Under the pieces are notes generated by a model. That model saw only the letters and a program-made list of their open reading frames with translations. It was not told the origin of the DNA and searched no databases. Below are positions 39,513 through 48,596 of a DNA stretch of 64,000 bases, piece by piece. A program made the translations under genes and the position numbers. Source of the DNA: Candidatus Dadabacteria bacterium (lineage in GTDB: Bacteria > Desulfobacterota_D > UBA1144 > Nemesobacterales > Nemesobacteraceae); contig VXTZ01000017.1 of NCBI GenBank assembly GCA_009837205.1, positions 62,001 through 126,000 on the forward strand. The letters are read 5' to 3'. Every line of letters begins with the position of its first letter. Position 1 is the stretch's first letter.

Positions 39513-40490
39513 ATGCGCCTTCTTGTGCTTTTAGCTTTGCTTCTTTGTTCCTGCTCCCACGGTACGGAGAATCTTTACGAGAGATCTTTTTACTCGATGG
39601 GTTCAACGGTGAAACTTAAGTTTTATTCCCCGAGCGAAGAACTTTTTCACCGGGTTGTTGATGCCTGCGTGAAGAGAACCAAGGAAATAGACCGGCTTTT
39701 CAGTAACTACAGGGATGACAGTGTTCTTGCTGAGGTGAACAGGAATGCGGGAGTTGCTCCCGTTTCCGTTCCCACAGAGTTTCTACGTCTCGTGCGGACC
39801 TCGATTAAGTACTCAGAGCTTACCGAAGGGGCTTTTGACATAACTATCGGCAGTCTTTTCGAACTCTGGGGGACTGAGACCAAGGCGGGGCGGTTACCCG
39901 GCCGGTCACGGATCCGCGACGCACTTGGGTGTACGGGTTTTCGGAAAATAAAGATAGACGAAGTTAAATCCCAGGTTTTCCTTGACGGCGACTGTGTCAG
40001 ACTCGACTTCGGAGCTATAGGAAAAGGCTATGCGGTTGACGAGATGGTAAATATCGCCAGGCAAAACGGGATCAAGAGGGGGCTTGTGAATTTCGGGGGA
40101 AACATATACGCAATGGACCCCCCCGCAGGCAAAAAGTTCTGGGATGTGGGAGTGAGAAAACCCGGGAGCGGAAGCGAAATCATCTCGAAGCTTGACCTTG
40201 TGGACAAGGGTGTCGCGACTTCAGGAGATTATGAGCGCTACTTTGAGCACGATGGGAAAAGATACTCCCATATAATTGATCCCAGGACGGGTTGGCCGGC
40301 TGAGGACGTGACTTCCGTTGTAGCCGTTTCCAAAACCGCTACGGAAGCCGATATCTTCTCGACTGCCGTTTCGGTTCTGGGTCCGCGTGGCGCGAAGATG
40401 TTTGCCAGGAAGGATAAATCACTGGGTTTTCTCGTCGTTTGGAAAAGCGGAAAGAAAAAGTCCTGCTTCGGGTCTTATGCGTGCCCGTAG
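39513..40490 (+). CDS. apbE: FAD:protein FMN transferase (ApbE)
   Basis: ApbE covalently attaches FMN from FAD to a Ser/Thr in exported FMN-binding domains. The 325-residue protein has an N-terminal lipoprotein-type signal (LLVLLALLLCSC), then YSMGSTVKLKF, the FAD-binding GAFDITIGSLFELWG, LDFGAIGKGYAVDEMV and VNFGGNIYA. The Mg-binding and catalytic region HIIDPRTGWPA and ATEADIFSTAVSVLG follows. The neighbouring minus-strand gene at 41018 encodes an FMN-binding protein, the obvious substrate. apbE is convergent with that gene run; it may be co-transcribed with the upstream tRNAs. Confidence 0.94.
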   Translation: MRLLVLLALLLCSCSHGTENLYERSFYSMGSTVKLKFYSPSEELFHRVVDACVKRTKEIDRLFSNYRDDSVLAEVNRNAGVAPVSVPTEFLRLVRTSIKYSELTEGAFDITIGSLFELWGTETKAGRLPGRSRIRDALGCTGFRKIKIDEVKSQVFLDGDCVRLDFGAIGKGYAVDEMVNIARQNGIKRGLVNFGGNIYAMDPPAGKKFWDVGVRKPGSGSEIISKLDLVDKGVATSGDYERYFEHDGKRYSHIIDPRTGWPAEDVTSVVAVSKTATEADIFSTAVSVLGPRGAKMFARKDKSLGFLVVWKSGKKKSCFGSYACP

Positions 40491-40502
40491 GGTGCAGGGG
40501 AG

Positions 40503-40997
40503 TCACTGCTGCTTCGGATATTCTGGTTTTTTTCTGTAGAGATAAAACGTTACGAAAATGATCAGGTAAAGAAGAGATATCTGAAGGACAACAAAAGAGC
40601 CGATTTTAACATAGGCAAACTCGGGGCTTACATATCTTACTAGCCAGCCGCCGGCTATATCGAGGAAGGCCGAGCCGTAAGACGCTATTATGACGAGAAG
40701 CTTCTCAGCGGAGCTTCTGTTAGTGAAAAGAAAGAGATGATTTAGCGTTACAAGTAAAACGGCCATTGAGAAAAAGTGGAAATGGGCTTCTTCAAGCAGT
40801 CCAAGGTAGCTTCTCGGAGGCCTGAAACTCTCCTCGGAACCCCTGTAGTACTCAACAACGCTTTCATAGCTGAACCCCACCTTAAGGAAAAGCAGCAGGT
40901 TTGTTAGCCACAGAAAGAGGAAGAAAATAGTCGTGAGCAGAACGACAAGTTTTAACAGATCGTTTTTTCTTATGTCCGATGAAATGAAGAATTTCAT
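40503..40997 (-). CDS. four-helix membrane protein of unknown function, linked to FMN-binding protein
   Basis: I do not recognise a named family. The 164-residue protein has four predicted helices (about 14-38, 72-92, 99-120, 130-154). Histidines at 72 and 74 (EAHFHFF) and 87 (TLNHLFLF) lie at or in helix 2, where they could bind heme or quinone. It has the good Shine-Dalgarno CAGGAGAG and follows the FMN-binding gene by 20 bases, so the two are co-expressed. Membrane partners feeding electrons to flavinylated domains are common in ApbE loci; assigning that role here is inference. Confidence 0.65.
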   Translation of the reverse strand: MKFFISSDIRKNDLLKLVVLLTTIFFLFLWLTNLLLFLKVGFSYESVVEYYRGSEESFRPPRSYLGLLEEAHFHFFSMAVLLVTLNHLFLFTNRSSAEKLLVIIASYGSAFLDIAGGWLVRYVSPEFAYVKIGSFVVLQISLLYLIIFVTFYLYRKKPEYPKQQ

Positions 40998-41017
40998 TTT
41001 TCTCTCCTGGATAGAAG

Positions 41018-41569
41018 TTATTGATCAGCCGTAGTGCCGAACATAACCCTGTAGACTGCGAGGACTCTTCTCGTGGCTTGCGAAAAAGATACCGCACTTA
41101 TCGTGGCTCCGGTAATATTGGGAACTCCTTTTCCTACCTTCATTCTGTCCATCTTGGTTTTTTCCAGGAACAAGTTTATCCATTTTCCGCTCGGCATGTA
41201 ATCTGTGGGTTCGAAAAATGCGAGAGTTTCGGCGTGGCGAAGCGTCCCATCGGGATTTATTACGAACATTACGGTTTCGGTCAAGGTACGAAGAGTGTGG
41301 GTATCGATAACCGCGTAGCCTGTCTCTTTTGCGCCGGATTTCGCTATGTAGAAAGTGTAGAGTCTTGAATCTACCTCTACCCTGGCCATTTCACGTACGC
41401 TTTCGGCCTGGGGCTTGGTGAGAAAAACGTGTCTTTTTTCTATTTCTTCTGCTTCAGGGAAAAGGAGCTCAAGCGCCTTGCCTTTGGTAAGAAAGACCTT
41501 GGCGGAGACATCTCCGGCACCATGCAGAAAAAACAAAAGCGTTATTAAGATAAGGATTCTCATATTCAT
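41018..41569 (-). CDS. exported FMN-binding domain protein (RnfG/NqrC-like), ApbE substrate
   Basis: The 183-residue protein has a signal peptide (ILILITLLFFLHGAGDVSA) and one FMN-binding domain: a lead with FYIAKSGAKETGYAVIDT, then PDGTLRHAETLAF and the flavinylation site NITGATISA near residues 151-159, with the predicted modified Thr at 156. The usual Asp three residues before the S/T of the motif Dxx(S/T)GA(T/S) is a Pro here. It should shuttle electrons outside the cytoplasm. Neighbours are a four-helix membrane protein downstream, a porin upstream, and convergent apbE. Confidence 0.87.
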   Translation of the reverse strand: MNMRILILITLLFFLHGAGDVSAKVFLTKGKALELLFPEAEEIEKRHVFLTKPQAESVREMARVEVDSRLYTFYIAKSGAKETGYAVIDTHTLRTLTETVMFVINPDGTLRHAETLAFFEPTDYMPSGKWINLFLEKTKMDRMKVGKGVPNITGATISAVSFSQATRRVLAVYRVMFGTTADQ

Positions 41570-41577
41570 GATGAAAG

Positions 41578-41608
41578 AAGGGCAACATTCTATCTGAATA
41601 TTGCCCTT
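41578..41608 (-). terminator. intercistronic hairpin between porin and FMN-binding gene
   Basis: AAGGGCAA (41578-41585) pairs with TTGCCCTT (41601-41608), and ATTC (41587-41590) with GAAT (41596-41599) extends the stem across one mismatch. T-runs are short on both strands. It could partially terminate porin transcripts or stabilise the porin mRNA end, setting porin above FMN-protein expression. Confidence 0.5.
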
Positions 41609-41682
41609 TTGAAGAGAGAGAAAGAGAGAAAAAAAAGAAGCATAAACCCGCGCCCGTTTATCGCGGATTTAAGTTCTGCATA

Positions 41683-42999
41683 CTAAAACACATATCCAAT
41701 CCCGAAGTTGTACTGGTCCTTTGCCTGACCCGCGGCGGTATCAAGATTCTGATACTCTGCCTTTATGACCACGTTTGGAATCGGCTTGTAATTTATCCCG
41801 ATAGTGTACTGGGTTCTGTCGTTCGCTGGATTTCTCTCATATCCGGCGGGAACCTTCTCCTGGGTATCAAATTGTTCATATCGGAAAAAAGGCGCTAGGT
41901 ACTCCATGTATTTGCTTCCAGAGTTAAGCGCGGAGAAAATGTTATATGCTCCTAGAATATACCAGCCGGACTGTTCCTCCCCGACGGATTTGTTGCCTTC
42001 ATACTCTTTAAGTTGGTTTATAAGCGCGGCGTCATCAAGACTGGTCCAGACTGCTAAAGCCTTCAGGTCTAACCCTGCATACTGAAACTGTCCGTCAACC
42101 GAGTACATCTGGAAGAGGCCGTCTATAGTCTGGCCGTTAACTTCCTCGTCCTGACCGGTGTTACCGTAGTACATGGATCCTCCGATTCTGATTCCCGGAA
42201 TAGGATCGTACTCAAGCCTTCCGACAAAAGCCATGTCCTCGAATCTTGCCCTGTTTCCCTTGATTCGAAGACTTCTGTTATCCGATGCCTTGAACCCCCG
42301 AGCATCGGCGCTCGACATCACGTAGGCCCTGTAAGAAAGCTCTCCGCCGCTGCCCAGATCAAACGTTCCATGTGCCCCGGCTCCAGACTCTCTCCATGTG
42401 CTCGGAATTATCCGTCTCTCCACCTCGGGTCGCCCCACTCCGTAAAACGTTGTCGGCTCATGAATCTCGTTTACAACTCCGAAAGGAGTCAGCAGAAGCC
42501 CACCCCGAAGGTTAAGCTCATCCCTTATAAGGAAATCGACGTACGCGAACTCAACCGAGGCCGATCCTGATTGTCCATCTTTGTTGCTTCCCGTCGTACC
42601 GTGCTCGAACTCGATTTCCGAGTTGAAAATTATGTGGTCGTTGTACTTGTAGCCGTTATAGAGAACCAGTCTCAGGGTATCCACTACATCGTTCGCATCC
42701 CCCTCTTTTACGTTGCCTATAAGCACCTCACCGTATCCTCCGAACGATATTCCCTGATCAACCCTGTAGACCTTAGAAGCCGCGGGGGCCAAGCCGAATT
42801 CCGTCTCATAGACCGTAGGCTCTGTTACCGAAGCGGACTTTATGGCTTCTATCTCATCCGCTAGAACTTTTATCTGTTCCTCAAGCTTTTTTATCTTTTC
42901 GTCCGAAGCCGTACCCGCTAGAGAAATCTGCGTACCTCCGAGTGAAAAAATCAGGAAAAAGACAAAAAGCGTTTTCCACCTTTTTGTATAATTAACCAT
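41683..42999 (-). CDS. outer-membrane porin with N-terminal coiled coil
   Basis: The 438-residue protein has a signal peptide, a short coiled coil (KIKKLEEQIKVLADEIEAIK), then a beta barrel ending in FGIGYVF with the terminal Phe needed for assembly. Strand-turn patterns such as GISFGGYGEVLIG and NSEIEFEHGTTG are porin-like. The coiled coil near the N-terminus recalls porins that trimerise or contact peptidoglycan. Shine-Dalgarno AAAGGAGGA is strong. It is divergent from the iron permease and shares a regulatory region with it, so a role in iron entry is plausible but unproven. Confidence 0.85.
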   Translation of the reverse strand: MVNYTKRWKTLFVFFLIFSLGGTQISLAGTASDEKIKKLEEQIKVLADEIEAIKSASVTEPTVYETEFGLAPAASKVYRVDQGISFGGYGEVLIGNVKEGDANDVVDTLRLVLYNGYKYNDHIIFNSEIEFEHGTTGSNKDGQSGSASVEFAYVDFLIRDELNLRGGLLLTPFGVVNEIHEPTTFYGVGRPEVERRIIPSTWRESGAGAHGTFDLGSGGELSYRAYVMSSADARGFKASDNRSLRIKGNRARFEDMAFVGRLEYDPIPGIRIGGSMYYGNTGQDEEVNGQTIDGLFQMYSVDGQFQYAGLDLKALAVWTSLDDAALINQLKEYEGNKSVGEEQSGWYILGAYNIFSALNSGSKYMEYLAPFFRYEQFDTQEKVPAGYERNPANDRTQYTIGINYKPIPNVVIKAEYQNLDTAAGQAKDQYNFGIGYVF

Positions 43000-43053
43000 C
43001 TGTTGACATCCTCCTTTTGCGACCTGTTAGGGTTGCCTAATTAGTAGATATTA

Positions 43054-43070
43054 TGGATATTACATATCCA
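43054..43070. promoter_or_regulatory. palindrome at the porin transcription start, operator-like
   Basis: TGGATAT (43054-43060) and ATATCCA (43064-43070) form a 7-bp inverted repeat with a three-base spacer. It lies directly downstream of the predicted porin start site (about 43073), a classic place for a repressor operator. The regulator is unknown. Confidence 0.5.
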
Positions 43071-43079
43071 GAATGTAGA

Positions 43080-43108
43080 TTAATAACATCCTGGAGTTAT
43101 GATGTCAA
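43080..43108 (-). promoter_or_regulatory. porin promoter
   Basis: On the minus strand TTGACA (43108-43103, 6/6) is followed after 17 bases by TATTAA (43085-43080, 4/6). Transcription would begin near 43073, about 74 bases before the porin ATG. Confidence 0.6.
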
Positions 43109-43135
43109 TAATTTTTTTTAAAAATATTTGCAGAT

Positions 43136-43170
43136 AAGAAAATCAGCGAAATTACCCGTCTGATTTTCTT
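43136..43170. repeat. 11-bp perfect inverted repeat in the divergent control region
   Basis: AAGAAAATCAG (43136-43146) and CTGATTTTCTT (43160-43170) are perfect complements separated by 13 bases. The element lies midway between the two divergent promoters. It may insulate them as a bidirectional terminator (T-rich arms) or bind a regulator. Confidence 0.55.
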
Positions 43171-43200
43171 CACGGAACTATGTAGATAGGCGAAAATGAC

Positions 43201-43219
43201 GACAATGAGAATTATTGAC
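43201..43219. promoter_or_regulatory. Fur-box-like operator overlapping the FTR1 -35
   Basis: The 19 bases GACAATGAGAATTATTGAC match the Fur consensus GATAATGATAATCATTATC at 14 of 19 positions and are themselves an imperfect palindrome (CAATnAnAnTnATTG). They overlap the TTGACA -35 element of the iron permease gene, so iron-loaded Fur would block RNA polymerase. This fits an iron-uptake function. Confidence 0.65.
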
Positions 43220-43243
43220 AATAAAGGTCTAGAATGGTAAAAA
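43215..43243 (+). promoter_or_regulatory. promoter of cytochrome c-FTR1 gene
   Basis: TTGACA (43215-43220, 6/6) with a 17-base spacer to TAAAAA (43238-43243, 4/6). The start near 43250 leaves only a short leader before ATG 43265. The -35 is inside the Fur-like box. Confidence 0.5.
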
Positions 43244-43264
43244 ATACCTTCCCTGACCCCCAAG

Positions 43265-45217
43265 ATGGGGAGATATTCGCGGACTATGCTTAAAAAAAGT
43301 TTCTTCTATTTGTCAGTTCTCATATTTTTTCTTTTTCCCGCGCTCTCTTATGCCGCAGAGATAGACAGGATCCTCTCTCTTGTCGATTACATAGGAGGAG
43401 ACTACGCAAATGCCGTAAAAGAAGGGAAGATCATAAACGAATTTGAGTATCAGGAGATGCTGGACTTTTCTTCCGTAGCGGCTGGCCTGTGGGAAAAAAC
43501 GGGTGAGAAGAGAGAAGGAACAGCTGATTTTTCCGAAAAATTCGCACGTCTGCACTCAATTATAGTATCCAAGGGGCCCGTCTCAGAAGTGGAAAGCCTT
43601 GCAGGTGAACTGAAGGGGCGGATCATTTCAGTCTATGACATCAAACCCTATCCGGCGAATATACCCGATTACGAAAGCGGAAAAGAGCTTTACGTGAGGA
43701 ACTGTTCCTCCTGTCATGGGCTCTCAGGAAGGCCGGACGATGCTTTCTCTAAGACCCTCAATCCTCCTCCCACGGATTTCACAGACCCTGATATAAATCT
43801 CGGGCTCTCACCTTTTAAAGTTTACAACACCACCACTTTCGGGATCGAAGGTACCGCCATGACCTCGTTCGAAAAGGTGCTTGACGAAAAACAGAAATGG
43901 GATGTGGCGTTTTACGTTCTCTCGCTCGGGTATCCAGATATTCCCTCAGGCGGAGGTGCTTCTGGACTTTCCACGGAGAATATTCCCCATGATGTAAGAA
44001 AGCTTGAAAATCTTGCCCTGGCCAGCAATGCGGAGATTCTTCTTAATGCCGGAGCCGGGGGCAGTGACGAGGAAGTTCTTTTTTACCTGAGAACCGCTTA
44101 TCTTCGGGATGGAATTGCTGGAGGTGCATCCGAAGCTATAGCCCATACCCTGAGGAAGCTTGAAGAGGCCATCGATCTTTACGAGGCCGGCAGAAAGGAC
44201 GAGGCTTTCAAGGAGGCTCTCGACGGGTACTTGGGAGGGTTTCAGAGAATCGAACCTGCCCTGGTATCGAAAAAAAGACCGCTTGTTCTTGAGGTTGAAA
44301 AAAAAATGGGATTTTTCAGGTCATTAGTGATGTCCGACCGGGATTCCTCCGAGCTTCATGATCTGAAAGCTAGCATAGAGGAGGATCTTCGCGAGTCGGA
44401 GCGCATCCTGCAAGGCGGCTCATCGCTCGGCAAATACCTGAGTTTTGTCAATTCTTTTGCCATAATACTCAGAGAAGCGCTTGAAGCTCTGCTGATAATC
44501 GCGGCCATTATCGCCGCTTTAGCGCATTCAGGTAACCGCGGGATGATCAGGTACGTTCACTACGGGTGGGTGCTTGCCCTCTTTGCAGGACTGGCGACGT
44601 GGGTTGCGGCAAGAACCATAATAGATATCTCGGGGGCTAGGAGGGAGATTGTGGAAGGAGTGACTTCTCTTCTGGCAGCAGTGATTCTTTTTTACGTAAG
44701 TTACTGGCTTATCTCAAAGGCGGACGTAAAAAAATGGAAGGAATACGTCCGCTCCAAAACCCAAGGCGCGCTTACCCGAAGAAGCGGCCTTACTCTTGCT
44801 TTCGTCTCGTTCCTTGCTGTCTACAGGGAAGCTTTCGAGACAATGCTTTTTTACCAGGCACTTTTCTTCCAGACAGGTTCCTCCATGCCACACGTGATCT
44901 ATGGACTTATTGCGGGGGTGGCGGTTGTGTTCGTAATAGGTTTTCTTATGTACAGGTTTACCCTCAGGATTCCTCTTAAATACTTCTTTTCCTTCACGAG
45001 CGTTTTCCTCTACCTGCTCTGTTTCATACTTCTCGGCAAGGGAATACTTGAACTCCAGGAGGCGGGAATTATTTCTTCAACTACGGCGGATTTCATTCCT
45101 TACATGGATACCCTTGGGATATATCCTTCTTATGAGACCGCGATCCCCCAAGCTGTCCTTCTTCTTGCCTTTTGTTTGTTTGCACGAAATTACGTATACC
45201 GGGAAAAACATTCGTAA
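43265..45217 (+). CDS. cytochrome c / FTR1 family iron permease
   Basis: The 650-residue protein joins a periplasmic part to a membrane permease. After a signal peptide it has a single c-type heme site CSSCH (about residues 147-151) in LYVRNCSSCHGLSG, with a likely axial Met in GTAMTSF. From about residue 398 there are seven helices with the two FTR1 iron-binding motifs RExxE: REALE (403-407) and REAFE (521-525). FTR1 permeases import ferric iron after oxidation of ferrous iron. The attached cytochrome probably accepts those electrons. ATG 43286 (MLKKSFF) is an alternative start. The gene is divergent from the porin and controlled by a Fur-like box. Confidence 0.92.
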   Translation: MGRYSRTMLKKSFFYLSVLIFFLFPALSYAAEIDRILSLVDYIGGDYANAVKEGKIINEFEYQEMLDFSSVAAGLWEKTGEKREGTADFSEKFARLHSIIVSKGPVSEVESLAGELKGRIISVYDIKPYPANIPDYESGKELYVRNCSSCHGLSGRPDDAFSKTLNPPPTDFTDPDINLGLSPFKVYNTTTFGIEGTAMTSFEKVLDEKQKWDVAFYVLSLGYPDIPSGGGASGLSTENIPHDVRKLENLALASNAEILLNAGAGGSDEEVLFYLRTAYLRDGIAGGASEAIAHTLRKLEEAIDLYEAGRKDEAFKEALDGYLGGFQRIEPALVSKKRPLVLEVEKKMGFFRSLVMSDRDSSELHDLKASIEEDLRESERILQGGSSLGKYLSFVNSFAIILREALEALLIIAAIIAALAHSGNRGMIRYVHYGWVLALFAGLATWVAARTIIDISGARREIVEGVTSLLAAVILFYVSYWLISKADVKKWKEYVRSKTQGALTRRSGLTLAFVSFLAVYREAFETMLFYQALFFQTGSSMPHVIYGLIAGVAVVFVIGFLMYRFTLRIPLKYFFSFTSVFLYLLCFILLGKGILELQEAGIISSTTADFIPYMDTLGIYPSYETAIPQAVLLLAFCLFARNYVYREKHS

Positions 45218-45373: not shown

Positions 45374-46681
45374 ATGAAGATAGATGTTGAGGATATCGAC
45401 AGCACCAGAAAAAAGATAAGGGTTTCTCTTTCCTCAGATCAGGTTGCGGAAAAAAGAAATTCCGTGTTCCGTGACGTTATGGGGGGAGTAAGCGTCAAGG
45501 GGTTTAGGAAGGGAAAGGTCCCCCGTCACGTGGTCGAGTCAATGTACGGAAAGGAGGTCGATCAGGAAACCGCATCTAACCTTGTTTCGGAAACCTTGTC
45601 CGAAGCCCTTGCGCAGCGCTCGCTTTTGCCAGTGACACGCCCCGACATCACGGAGATGGGTGAGGTAAAGACTGGAGAGGACTTCGCCTATTCGGCTGAA
45701 TTCGAGGTTGTTCCTGATTTTGAGCTTTCTGACTACAGCTCAATTCCGGTTAAGAAAACCGTCCGCCAGGTGACCGAGGAGGATATAGACGCCGAGGTGC
45801 AGAAACTCAGGGAAAGGTCTGCGCAGTCAAGGCTTATCGAGGAAGACCGTTCTGCCAAGGAGGGCGATTACCTTTTTGTCGACTACAGCGGCAAGTTTGA
45901 AGACGGGGAGACCATAGACGATCTTAACAGGCAGAATGTAAGGTTTTTGCTGGGCGAAGAACAGTTTGCCCCCGAGTTCGAAGAGAACTTGCTTGGGAAG
46001 AAAGCGGGCGAGGAAGCTCAATTCTCGGTTTCCTACCCGGAAGATTTCCTAATACCCGAGGCCGCCGGGAAAACCGTCAGTTTCACCGTCAAGATAAATG
46101 AGATTCACGACAGGATTCTGCCCGAGGCGGACGATGATTTCACTAAGGATTTTGACGTCGAGGGTATCTCTGAGCTAAAAGAGGCCATAAAAGAGCAGCT
46201 TGAGCACCTTCATGAAGACGAACAGCTCTCATCCATGAGGGAACAGATAGTCGACGACCTTCTCTCGAAAAACCAGTTCGACGTTCCTCCGTCGCTGCTT
46301 GAAAAGGAAGAGGAGAGCCTTAAAGCGAGATTCCTCTCCGACATGCAGAGAGGCGGAGTCACGGAGCCCGAGATCGGGGAGGACATGGCTCCAAAATTCA
46401 CCGAGAAGGCCGCCGAGAGTGTCAGGACATCTATAATTCTCGGCCGCATCGCTCAGAAGGAGAACGTGAGAGTTACCCGTAAGCAGTTAAACGAGCACAT
46501 AGACCGCCTGGCCGCTTCATATAATCTTCCCCCCGATCAGGTGCACAAGGCTTATGAACAGCCGGGGACTATGGAGCATCTGGAATCCCAGATCAAAACC
46601 CGAGGGGTTTTGGATCTTCTCTTGGAGCGGGCCCAGATTGAGGAAGTAGAGGGCGAACCCGCGCAGATTGACAAGGAATAA
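45374..46681 (+). CDS. tig: trigger factor
   Basis: Trigger factor is the ribosome-bound chaperone and prolyl isomerase. The 435-residue protein has the N-terminal ribosome-binding signature [17 protein letters not shown], the FKBP-type domain ([38 protein letters not shown]), and the helical C-terminal chaperone arms. It heads the conserved tig-clpP-clpX run. The last codons contain a consensus promoter for clpP. Confidence 0.96.
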
Positions 46682-46697
46682 CACGCTTAGTTATAAT
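46668..46697 (+). promoter_or_regulatory. consensus promoter for leaderless clpP, inside the end of tig
   Basis: TTGACA (46668-46673) and TATAAT (46692-46697) are both perfect, with an 18-base spacer. The -10 ends seven bases before the clpP ATG at 46705, so the transcript should begin at the start codon or one base before it. No Shine-Dalgarno precedes clpP. Confidence 0.75.
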
Positions 46698-46704
46698 CGG
46701 TTCG

Positions 46705-47307
46705 ATGATAACCGATTTCATACCCTATGTTATTGAGCGTACGAGCAGGGGCGATCAGGGCTACGATATTTTCTCAAGGCTCCTTAAGGACAGGATCGTC
46801 TTTATAGGTTCCGACATAAACGATGCGGTAGCCAACGTCGTAATCGCCCAGCTCCTTTTTCTTGAATCCGAGAACCCCGAGACGCCTATTTACCTCTACA
46901 TAAATTCTCCCGGAGGGCATGTTACTTCCGGTCTTGCCATCTACGACACAATACAGTACGTGAAGCCCGAAGTCTCCACCATATGCATCGGGCAGGCGGT
47001 CAGCATGGCTGCGGTTCTTCTGGCAAGCGGCGCGGCGGGCAAAAGGTATGCGTTGCCTCACTCAAGGGTGATGATTCACCAGGTGCTCGGAGGTGTTTCC
47101 GGGCAGGCAAGCGACATAGAGATACACGCAAAGGAGATCGTCAGGGTGAAAGAGCAGCTCAACTCCATACTTGAGAAGCACACCGGGCAGACTCTTGAGA
47201 AGATAGCGAGCGATACGGACAGAGACTTTTTCATGACCGCCCAGGATTCTATTGATTACGGTATAGTGGATGCCATAATTACCGAAAGGGAGGAGGCAAC
47301 CGGATGA
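46705..47307 (+). CDS. clpP: ATP-dependent Clp protease proteolytic subunit
   Basis: ClpP forms the tetradecameric serine-protease barrel fed by ClpX. The 200-residue protein begins [19 protein letters not shown] and has the catalytic Ser at about residue 100 in [13 protein letters not shown], His at about 125 in RVMIHQ, and the Asp in the DRDFFM region. The short N-terminus suggests little or no propeptide. It overlaps clpX by four bases (ATGA), and a perfect promoter lies directly upstream. Confidence 0.97.
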
Positions 47308-48596
47308 GTCCCAGAAAAAGCAAAGAAGAAACGAAGCACTACTGTTCTTTCTGCGGGAAGAACCAGGAAGAGATCAACAAGCTCATAGCGGGCCACGGCG
47401 TCTATATCTGTGATGAGTGCATAGACCTCTGTAACCAGATTATAGCGGAAGAGAGGACCAAGGACAGCGCTTTTCCGAAACCGAAGAAATCCTTTCCGAC
47501 CCCACAGCAGATGAAATCTTTCCTTGACGGATACATAATAGGTCAGGAAAACGCCAAGAAGGTACTTTCCGTCGCCGTCTACAATCACTACAAGCGGATG
47601 CAGTTTAACGAATCCGGTAGGAGAAGAAGCGACAAGGTGGAAGTGGAGAAAAGCAACATACTTCTCATAGGCCCAACGGGTTCAGGAAAAACCCTGCTTG
47701 CGCAGACGCTGGCCAAGATTCTCGACGTTCCCTTCACCATAGTGGACGCTACCTGCTATACGGAAGCTGGCTATGTGGGCGAGGACGTGGAAAACATGAT
47801 AGTGAGTCTCCTTCAGGCGGCAAACTACGATGTCGAAAAGGCTTCCCGTGGAGGCATTATCTATATAGACGAGATAGACAAGCTCACGCGCAAATCAAGC
47901 GACAGTCCCTCGATCACGAGAGATGTCTCGGGAGAGGGTGTGCAGCAGGCGTTGCTCAAGATAATGGAAGGGACTCTGGCAAATGTTCCTCCCAAGGGGG
48001 GAAGGAAGCATCCGCAGCAGGAATTTACCCAGGTGGACACCACGAACATTCTTTTCATATGCGGCGGTGCTTTCTGCGGCCTTGAGGATATTATCCGCGC
48101 GAGAATCGGGGAGAAATCCATCGGCTTCGGAGCTAAATTGTCAGACAGGACTGCGGAGGACGAAAGCAACTTTCTCAACAAGGTCCAACCTGAGGACCTC
48201 GTTCAGTTCGGACTGATTCCCGAATTCGTCGGGAGGGTCCCGATTATCGCCAGTCTGAGCGAACTTACCGAAGAGCAACTGATCGAAATTCTGACCGAAC
48301 CCAAAAACGCTATCGTGAAGCAGTTTGAGAGGATGATGGAAATCGAGAAGGTGCAGCTGGAGATAACGGAAGATGCGAGAAAGGCCATTGCCGGGGAAGC
48401 CGTCTTGAGAAATACCGGGGCCAGGGGGCTTCGGGCCATCATAGAAGCGATTATGCTTGAGGTCTTCTATGAAGTGCCTTCGCTGCAGGGAGTAACGCGC
48501 TGTGTGATTGACGAGAGCGTTATAGCCGGGCGCAACGATCCCAAGTTTTATTTTGAGAAGTCGGATGAGGAAGCCCAGAAGTTGCTAGGAACATAG
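47304..48596 (+). CDS. clpX: ATP-dependent Clp protease ATPase subunit
   Basis: ClpX unfolds substrates and threads them into ClpP. The 430-residue AAA+ protein has the N-terminal C4 zinc-binding domain (C14, C17, C36, C39 in HYCSFCGKN and [10 protein letters not shown]), Walker [16 protein letters not shown], Walker [10 protein letters not shown] and sensor/arginine region [12 protein letters not shown]. The pore loop GYVGEDVEN is present. It overlaps clpP by four bases, ensuring coupled synthesis. Confidence 0.97.

Follow-up and report, generated by a model that had tools for sequence, protein, structure and literature searches.

A conserved cassette of porin, FMN-binding protein and four-helix membrane protein in Candidatus Dadabacteria, with a possible role in flavin-based, iron- or Fe-S-regulated iron uptake

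What would a flavin transferase, a secreted flavoprotein, a small histidine-bearing membrane protein, a porin and an iron permease do side by side in the genome of an uncultured bacterium? The question is raised by positions 39513 to 45217 of a 64,000-nucleotide stretch of contig VXTZ01000017.1 (the whole stretch is hereafter called the window), from a 1.69-Mb metagenome-assembled genome (MAG) of a sponge-associated, uncultured Candidatus Dadabacteria bacterium; a near-identical locus is found in another Candidatus Dadabacteria contig (L079, JAPPFE010000020.1). An earlier inspection of the letters alone (the sequence-only reading) had proposed five contiguous genes, coding for ApbE, a flavinylated protein that binds flavin mononucleotide (FMN), a protein with four transmembrane helices (TM4), a porin and a fusion of cytochrome c to FTR1 (c-FTR1), and all five open reading frames were found where it had placed them, with the expected domains. 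Here, we find that the conserved core is the porin-FMN_bind-TM4 trio, usually together with ApbE, rather than the FTR1 permease. We give about an even chance to the whole chain that we propose below, in which the set would form a flavin-based module for reductive iron uptake, regulated by iron or by iron-sulphur (Fe-S) clusters.

TM4 is present in 46 of the 119 genomes; 42 of the 46, the window's own included, belong to the same class. The order porin-FMN-TM4 is kept in practically all of the Dadabacteria loci, with apbE adjacent in some families, and chance does not explain this gene order, since relatives with TM4 identity down to about 45% still keep it. Beyond Dadabacteria, Tectomicrobia, Methylomirabilota, Acidobacteria/Blastocatellia and other deltaproteobacterial MAGs also carry the module, and a further lineage, f69, has the order porin-FMN-TM4-ApbE. 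A looser group (L050, L141-L145) is arranged as BBP2 porin, TM4-like protein and FMN-like protein, and is devoid of the flavinylation threonine, of ApbE and of the TM4 residue H87 (see below). Scans of viral_contigs with c-FTR1 and TM4 gave no match. In the window, the first gene of the porin-FMN-TM4 run (41683..42999, minus strand) codes for an outer-membrane porin with an N-terminal coiled coil, whose similarity to BBP2 is weak (E 1e-4) and below the cut-off.

The second gene of the run (41018..41569, minus strand) codes for a secreted, RnfG/NqrC-like FMN_bind protein. Taken alone against Pfam, the window protein gave an E value of 0.0047, below the cut-off. The FMN_bind fold is nevertheless recovered from its homologues, 37 of 38 of which match PF04205 at E <= 0.01; in addition, a profile search matched PDB entry 9eri_G (E 1e-10), and Foldseek, run on the AlphaFold model (pLDDT 89.9), found RnfG/NqrC (E 3.9e-5). 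The predicted flavinylation site, T156, closes a TGAT motif (residues 153-156) and is invariant in alignment A3; the protein thus combines the [S/T]GA[S/T] site with an adjacent ApbE, the two features by which flavinylated FMN_bind proteins are recognized. ApbE itself (39513..40490, plus strand; PF02424, E 2e-81), a FAD:protein FMN transferase with a lipobox-like LLLC and a predicted extracytosolic lipoprotein, is encoded by a single-copy gene and is the sole ApbE match in the genome. A search of the same genome with PF04205 at E 0.001 gave no match, and the protein described here is therefore the sole FMN_bind candidate seen. That the locus pairs a flavin transferase with its substrate, as first proposed, is borne out by the only ApbE of the genome adjoining the FMN protein, which is very probably covalently flavinylated. 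The FMN subunits RnfG and NqrC are alike in the FMN_bind fold and the threonine attachment motif, but the window protein is soluble, secreted and encoded outside any Rnf or Nqr cluster. Elsewhere, a single protein fuses FMN_bind and ApbE (L049:6267-7766), and a TM4-like gene comes after it.

TM4 (40503..40997, minus strand) gave a confident four-helix AlphaFold model (pLDDT 87.5), with helices at residues 13-40, 64-89, 96-122 and 125-154. G53, H72, H74, F76, H87 and W118 are invariant in alignment A2; H72 and H74, which form an HxH motif (HFH in the window protein), are retained in essentially all members, and H87 in all except the f69 and BBP2 groups. That loss of H87 might track loss of flavinylation was suggested by L050 and refuted by the f69 group. 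None of 41 members matched a family in Pfam or NCBIfam, including PepSY, MsrQ, NapH and DsbD, no neighbour of the fold was found in the PDB with Foldseek (best E 1.6), and a relation to DUF4405/FezC was rejected (hhalign probability of 1% against the DUF4405 set); with regard to these collections, the family is as undescribed as the sequence-only reading had supposed. By their charge distribution, both termini are probably cytosolic; H72 and H74 would therefore lie in the periplasmic half of helix 2, and the protein may bind heme or quinone. In two genomes of the f69 lineage (L127, L128) a TM4-like domain is fused to FMN_bind, which argues for a physical complex. The PepSY-like, MsrQ-like, DUF4405 and FezC proteins (PMC8238504, PMC10979944) are likewise small, His-bearing membrane proteins encoded beside a flavinylated protein and ApbE, and FezC has been modelled as a working homodimer (PMC8238504, PMC10979944); TM4 differs from these flavinylation-associated membrane cytochromes in having four helices, with the conserved His residues confined to helix 2.

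The permease gene (43265..45217, plus strand; ATG 43286, directly ahead of the signal peptide, is a possible alternative start) codes for a protein with a signal peptide, a cytochrome c domain (Cytochrom_C, PF00034, E 3.5e-9) with a single CSSCH heme site, and an FTR1 domain (PF03239, E 1e-28) bearing the two REXXE motifs, REALE and REAFE, that together with the domain define FTR1/EfeU permeases. No FeoB turned up in any of the genus's 14 genomes, and c-FTR1 is therefore the only evident ferrous-type permease there. Five lineages have FTR1 genes adjoining the module, and four arrangements are seen: the c-FTR1 fusion in family f1; a lone FTR1 of 258-260 aa with both REXXE motifs in the marine family f8 (L069, L071, L075, L082), where lone FTR1 genes also lie within 0.6 kb of the module in genomes G050 and G051; an FTR1-FtrD fusion with two FtsX and an ABC ATPase (Tectomicrobia L055 and deltaproteobacterial L095); and the order FTR1-porin-multicopper oxidase-FMN-ApbE-TM4 in Methylomirabilota (L093). 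The multicopper oxidase of the last arrangement (L093:7100-8344), between the porin and FMN_bind, resembles the Fet3/Ftr1 pairing. In family f7 (G020), a lone cytochrome c gene occupies the divergent position of c-FTR1. A small secreted protein of 116-137 aa without a Pfam match adjoins the f8 FTR1 (L071:10492-10842, L069:7516-7905, L044:5805-6218) and stays beside the porin where FTR1 has been lost.

The porin and c-FTR1 genes diverge from a 265-bp gap with two facing predicted promoters and blocks conserved in relatives, so that the control region postulated for the two genes is real. Box A, TATGGATATTACATATCCAGA (43052..43072), a palindromic putative operator, lies directly downstream of the predicted transcription start of the porin gene and has the top matrix score (19.3; the matrix is described below) of the 64-kb window. 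The porin promoter (43080..43108, minus strand), read from the sequence and within a block conserved in relatives, has a -35 TTGACA (43103-43108) and a -10 TATTAA (43080-43085) separated by 17 bp; it overlaps Box B (43090..43110), a weaker copy, TGGAG-N7-GTCAA, over the -35, which scores second in the window (13.7) and which aligns in the relative L065 with TGGAC-N7-GTCAA. Box C, TATTGACAATAAAGGTCTAGA (43213..43233; TTGAC-N7-GTCTA), covers the predicted -35 of c-FTR1 (TTGACA, 43215-43220), is conserved in the aligned f1 relatives and is close to the Myxococcus xanthus RisR site, T(t/g)GAC-N7-GTCC(t/a) (PMC9973013). A candidate Fur box (43201-43219, 14/19 match) is lost in most relatives, and membership of a Fur regulon was rejected.

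The motif of Box A is the one found in rrf2-sufBC promoters. A single Rrf2 regulator is encoded in the window's genome, immediately ahead of sufB and sufC (L170:3562-3981, minus strand), and at all 32 of the Dadabacteria loci with Rrf2 homologues, the protein has a C-x6-C-x5-C motif and its gene precedes sufB. The palindrome common to the rrf2 promoters is TATGGA-N9-TCCATA; separate from it, a second conserved palindrome, TGGTAA-N3-TTACCA, is seen in many rrf2-suf promoters (L170:4020-4045; L189-L217). A weight matrix was derived from 17 rrf2 promoters that all lie outside the window's genus, 16 of them in other families and one in the sister genus. Against this matrix, the porin promoters of f1, f7 and f8, the families with an adjacent FTR1 or cytochrome gene, score at least 14 (range 14-23) at 15 of 17 loci, which are related by descent and hence not 15 independent events; of 268 control upstream regions, none reaches 14 (maximum 11.4). 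As to the two loci missed, the gene in L075 is fragmented and rich in N, and L082 reaches 23.8 once a homology-based start is used. A copy of the box also lies directly upstream of the f8 FTR1 gene. Thus, the operator motif is common to the set and the rrf2-suf promoter, as in a regulon, the f8 rrf2 promoters excepted. A pattern search of the window's genome returned only two exact operator copies, one at the porin and the other ahead of a cytochrome c gene adjoining rrf2-sufBC (L170:4864-4884, G000:C12), a result that proves little alone since the pattern was built from those same two copies. The simplest reading is that Rrf2 is the putative protein binding the boxes, and control of the set in response to iron or Fe-S clusters is likely. 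RisR, IscR and RirA (PMC9973013, PMC6748827) are comparable in that a three-Cys Rrf2 protein is encoded before suf genes and that the operator resembles the RisR site; the present case differs in its Cys spacing, C-x6-C-x5-C, and in its predicted reach to an operon for iron uptake and flavin. The related Rrf2 protein RirA is a repressor of iron uptake (PMC6748827).

Gene content, conservation, the FMN fold and motif, the rrf2-suf operator motif and the FTR1 neighbourhoods are computed; Rrf2 binding, flavinylation, the carriage of quinol electrons by TM4, iron as the substrate and the direction of electron flow are inferred. In the proposed chain, shortage of iron or of Fe-S clusters would cause an IscR/RisR-like Rrf2 repressor to leave boxes A-C, turning the set on. 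Iron complexes would enter through the porin; electrons from the quinone pool would pass through TM4 to the covalently flavinylated, periplasmic FMN protein, which would reduce Fe(III) to Fe(II) outside the cytoplasm. The substrate of FTR1 permeases is Fe(II), the oxidation of which is thought to drive import (PMC11966278); where FTR1 is present, Fe(II) would be re-oxidized during import, and the fused cytochrome c of c-FTR1 would return the electron toward the respiratory chain, acting as Fet3 does for yeast Ftr1. Flavinylated proteins encoded near iron transporters have been proposed to be assimilatory iron reductases (PMC8238504). More tentatively, and with a probability that we place a little short of even, TM4 may represent a further, widely spread class of membrane partner for ApbE-flavinylated proteins, one that makes up a fixed trio with porin and FMN_bind in several phyla and forms a ferric reductase serving various FTR1s, with a RisR-like Fe-S regulator extended from suf to iron uptake.

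Several observations weigh against this scheme. In some f8 FMN proteins (L044, L069, L072, L085) the motif is SNST or ANST, where Asn takes the position of the Gly in [S/T]GA[S/T], and ApbE is still adjacent; the f69 TM4 proteins are without H87 in loci that keep the flavinylation motif and ApbE, which speaks against a two-heme helix common to all members. Taken by itself, Box C is weak (6.6 by the matrix, near the 95th percentile of chance), and the box is absent from the porin promoters of f3 and f5 (0/9) and from the two f8 rrf2 promoters examined. FTR1 is found in 32 of the 42 module-bearing genomes and in 8 of the 16 module-free genomes of the same class, a loose tie, the other 10 of the 42 genomes with TM4 having no FTR1 match; families f3, f5 and f7 carry c-FTR1 elsewhere, apart from the cassette. 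The congener G003, a natural deletion of the cassette, is without FMN, TM4 and ApbE and has an intact c-FTR1 beside an 81-aa porin remnant (L160:6191-8478). Cassette and FTR1 thus each occur alone, and the direct coupling to this c-FTR1 that the sequence-only reading had drawn found no support: such wiring is not established. Its broader link to iron is supported by the FTR1 neighbours in five lineages and the operator common to rrf2-suf.

The weak co-occurrence at the genome level, the solitary c-FTR1 of G003 and its separate location in f3, f5 and f7 would all fit a neighbourhood that is, in the genus, mostly coincidence, with independently useful loci that merely have a divergent promoter region in common; against this, FTR1 lies near the module in five or more lineages and conserved boxes cover both facing promoters, and we consider it very unlikely. 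Module loci without FTR1 are found in many genomes, and in f69 no FTR1 lies near the cassette, so that the substrate may not be iron in every case. This would also be expected of a general flavin shuttle from quinol to the periplasm, or of a respiratory or redox-repair system, with an acceptor other than iron and under Fe-S control since flavin would substitute for iron cytochromes in scarcity; such flavin-for-cytochrome swapping has been proposed (PMC8238504), and the cytochrome c gene adjoining rrf2-suf also bears the box. We regard a general shuttle as rather unlikely, given that FTR1 neighbourhoods are repeated in separate lineages, that in f8 a box lies ahead of FTR1 itself and that a multicopper oxidase accompanies FTR1 in L093. 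Finally, FTR1 needs ferrous oxidation (PMC11966278) and hence an electron sink, and the flavoprotein and TM4 could act on the oxidase side, accepting electrons from Fe(II) during import and passing them to quinone. That role seems, however, to be taken by the cytochrome domain, FtrD or the multicopper oxidase. Covalently bound flavins are, moreover, usually of low potential and better suited as reductants, and we consider an oxidase-side function highly improbable.

The combination of flavinylation with FTR1 is already described: the P19/FTR1 clusters with FMN-binding genes (Meheust et al. 2021, PMC8238504) also pair FTR1 with an extracytosolic FMN-binding protein and have been proposed to serve iron assimilation. 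The window locus differs from them in its porin, 4-TM partner, cytochrome-fused FTR1 and Rrf2-type operator; a profile search found no P19 (PF10634) among the five genes, and there is no P19 in the window. The FtrABCD and yeast Fet3/Ftr1 systems (PMC11966278) similarly have an FTR1-family permease with Fe(II) oxidized by a partner, but in the window the partner is a fused cytochrome c, to which a predicted reductase module is added. FtrA, FtrB, FtrD, EfeO and EfeB were not found among the five genes, and FtrD fused to FTR1 is seen only in L055 and L095. The new elements are the TM4 family, which recurs as the membrane partner, a porin as a fixed component, the variety of FTR1 types and an operator motif in common with rrf2-suf.

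As for the surroundings, genes for tRNA-Lys and tRNA-Leu lie directly upstream of apbE. In the window's genus (45374-48596 in the window), and likewise in the unrelated f69 (L127:10824-14070; L130:9562-12724), the cassette has tig-clpP-clpX as neighbours, either by ancient synteny or by coincidence.

For the lineage itself, uncultured and sponge-associated, the analysis predicts control by iron or Fe-S clusters; we found no paper on its iron uptake. It also offers a testable answer as to the redox partners of FTR1-type permeases that are without FtrB or EfeB. Published surveys recognize five classes of membrane partner for flavinylated proteins in addition to DUF4405, and assign no partner at many ApbE loci; the TM4 family, which spans several phyla, would fill part of this gap.

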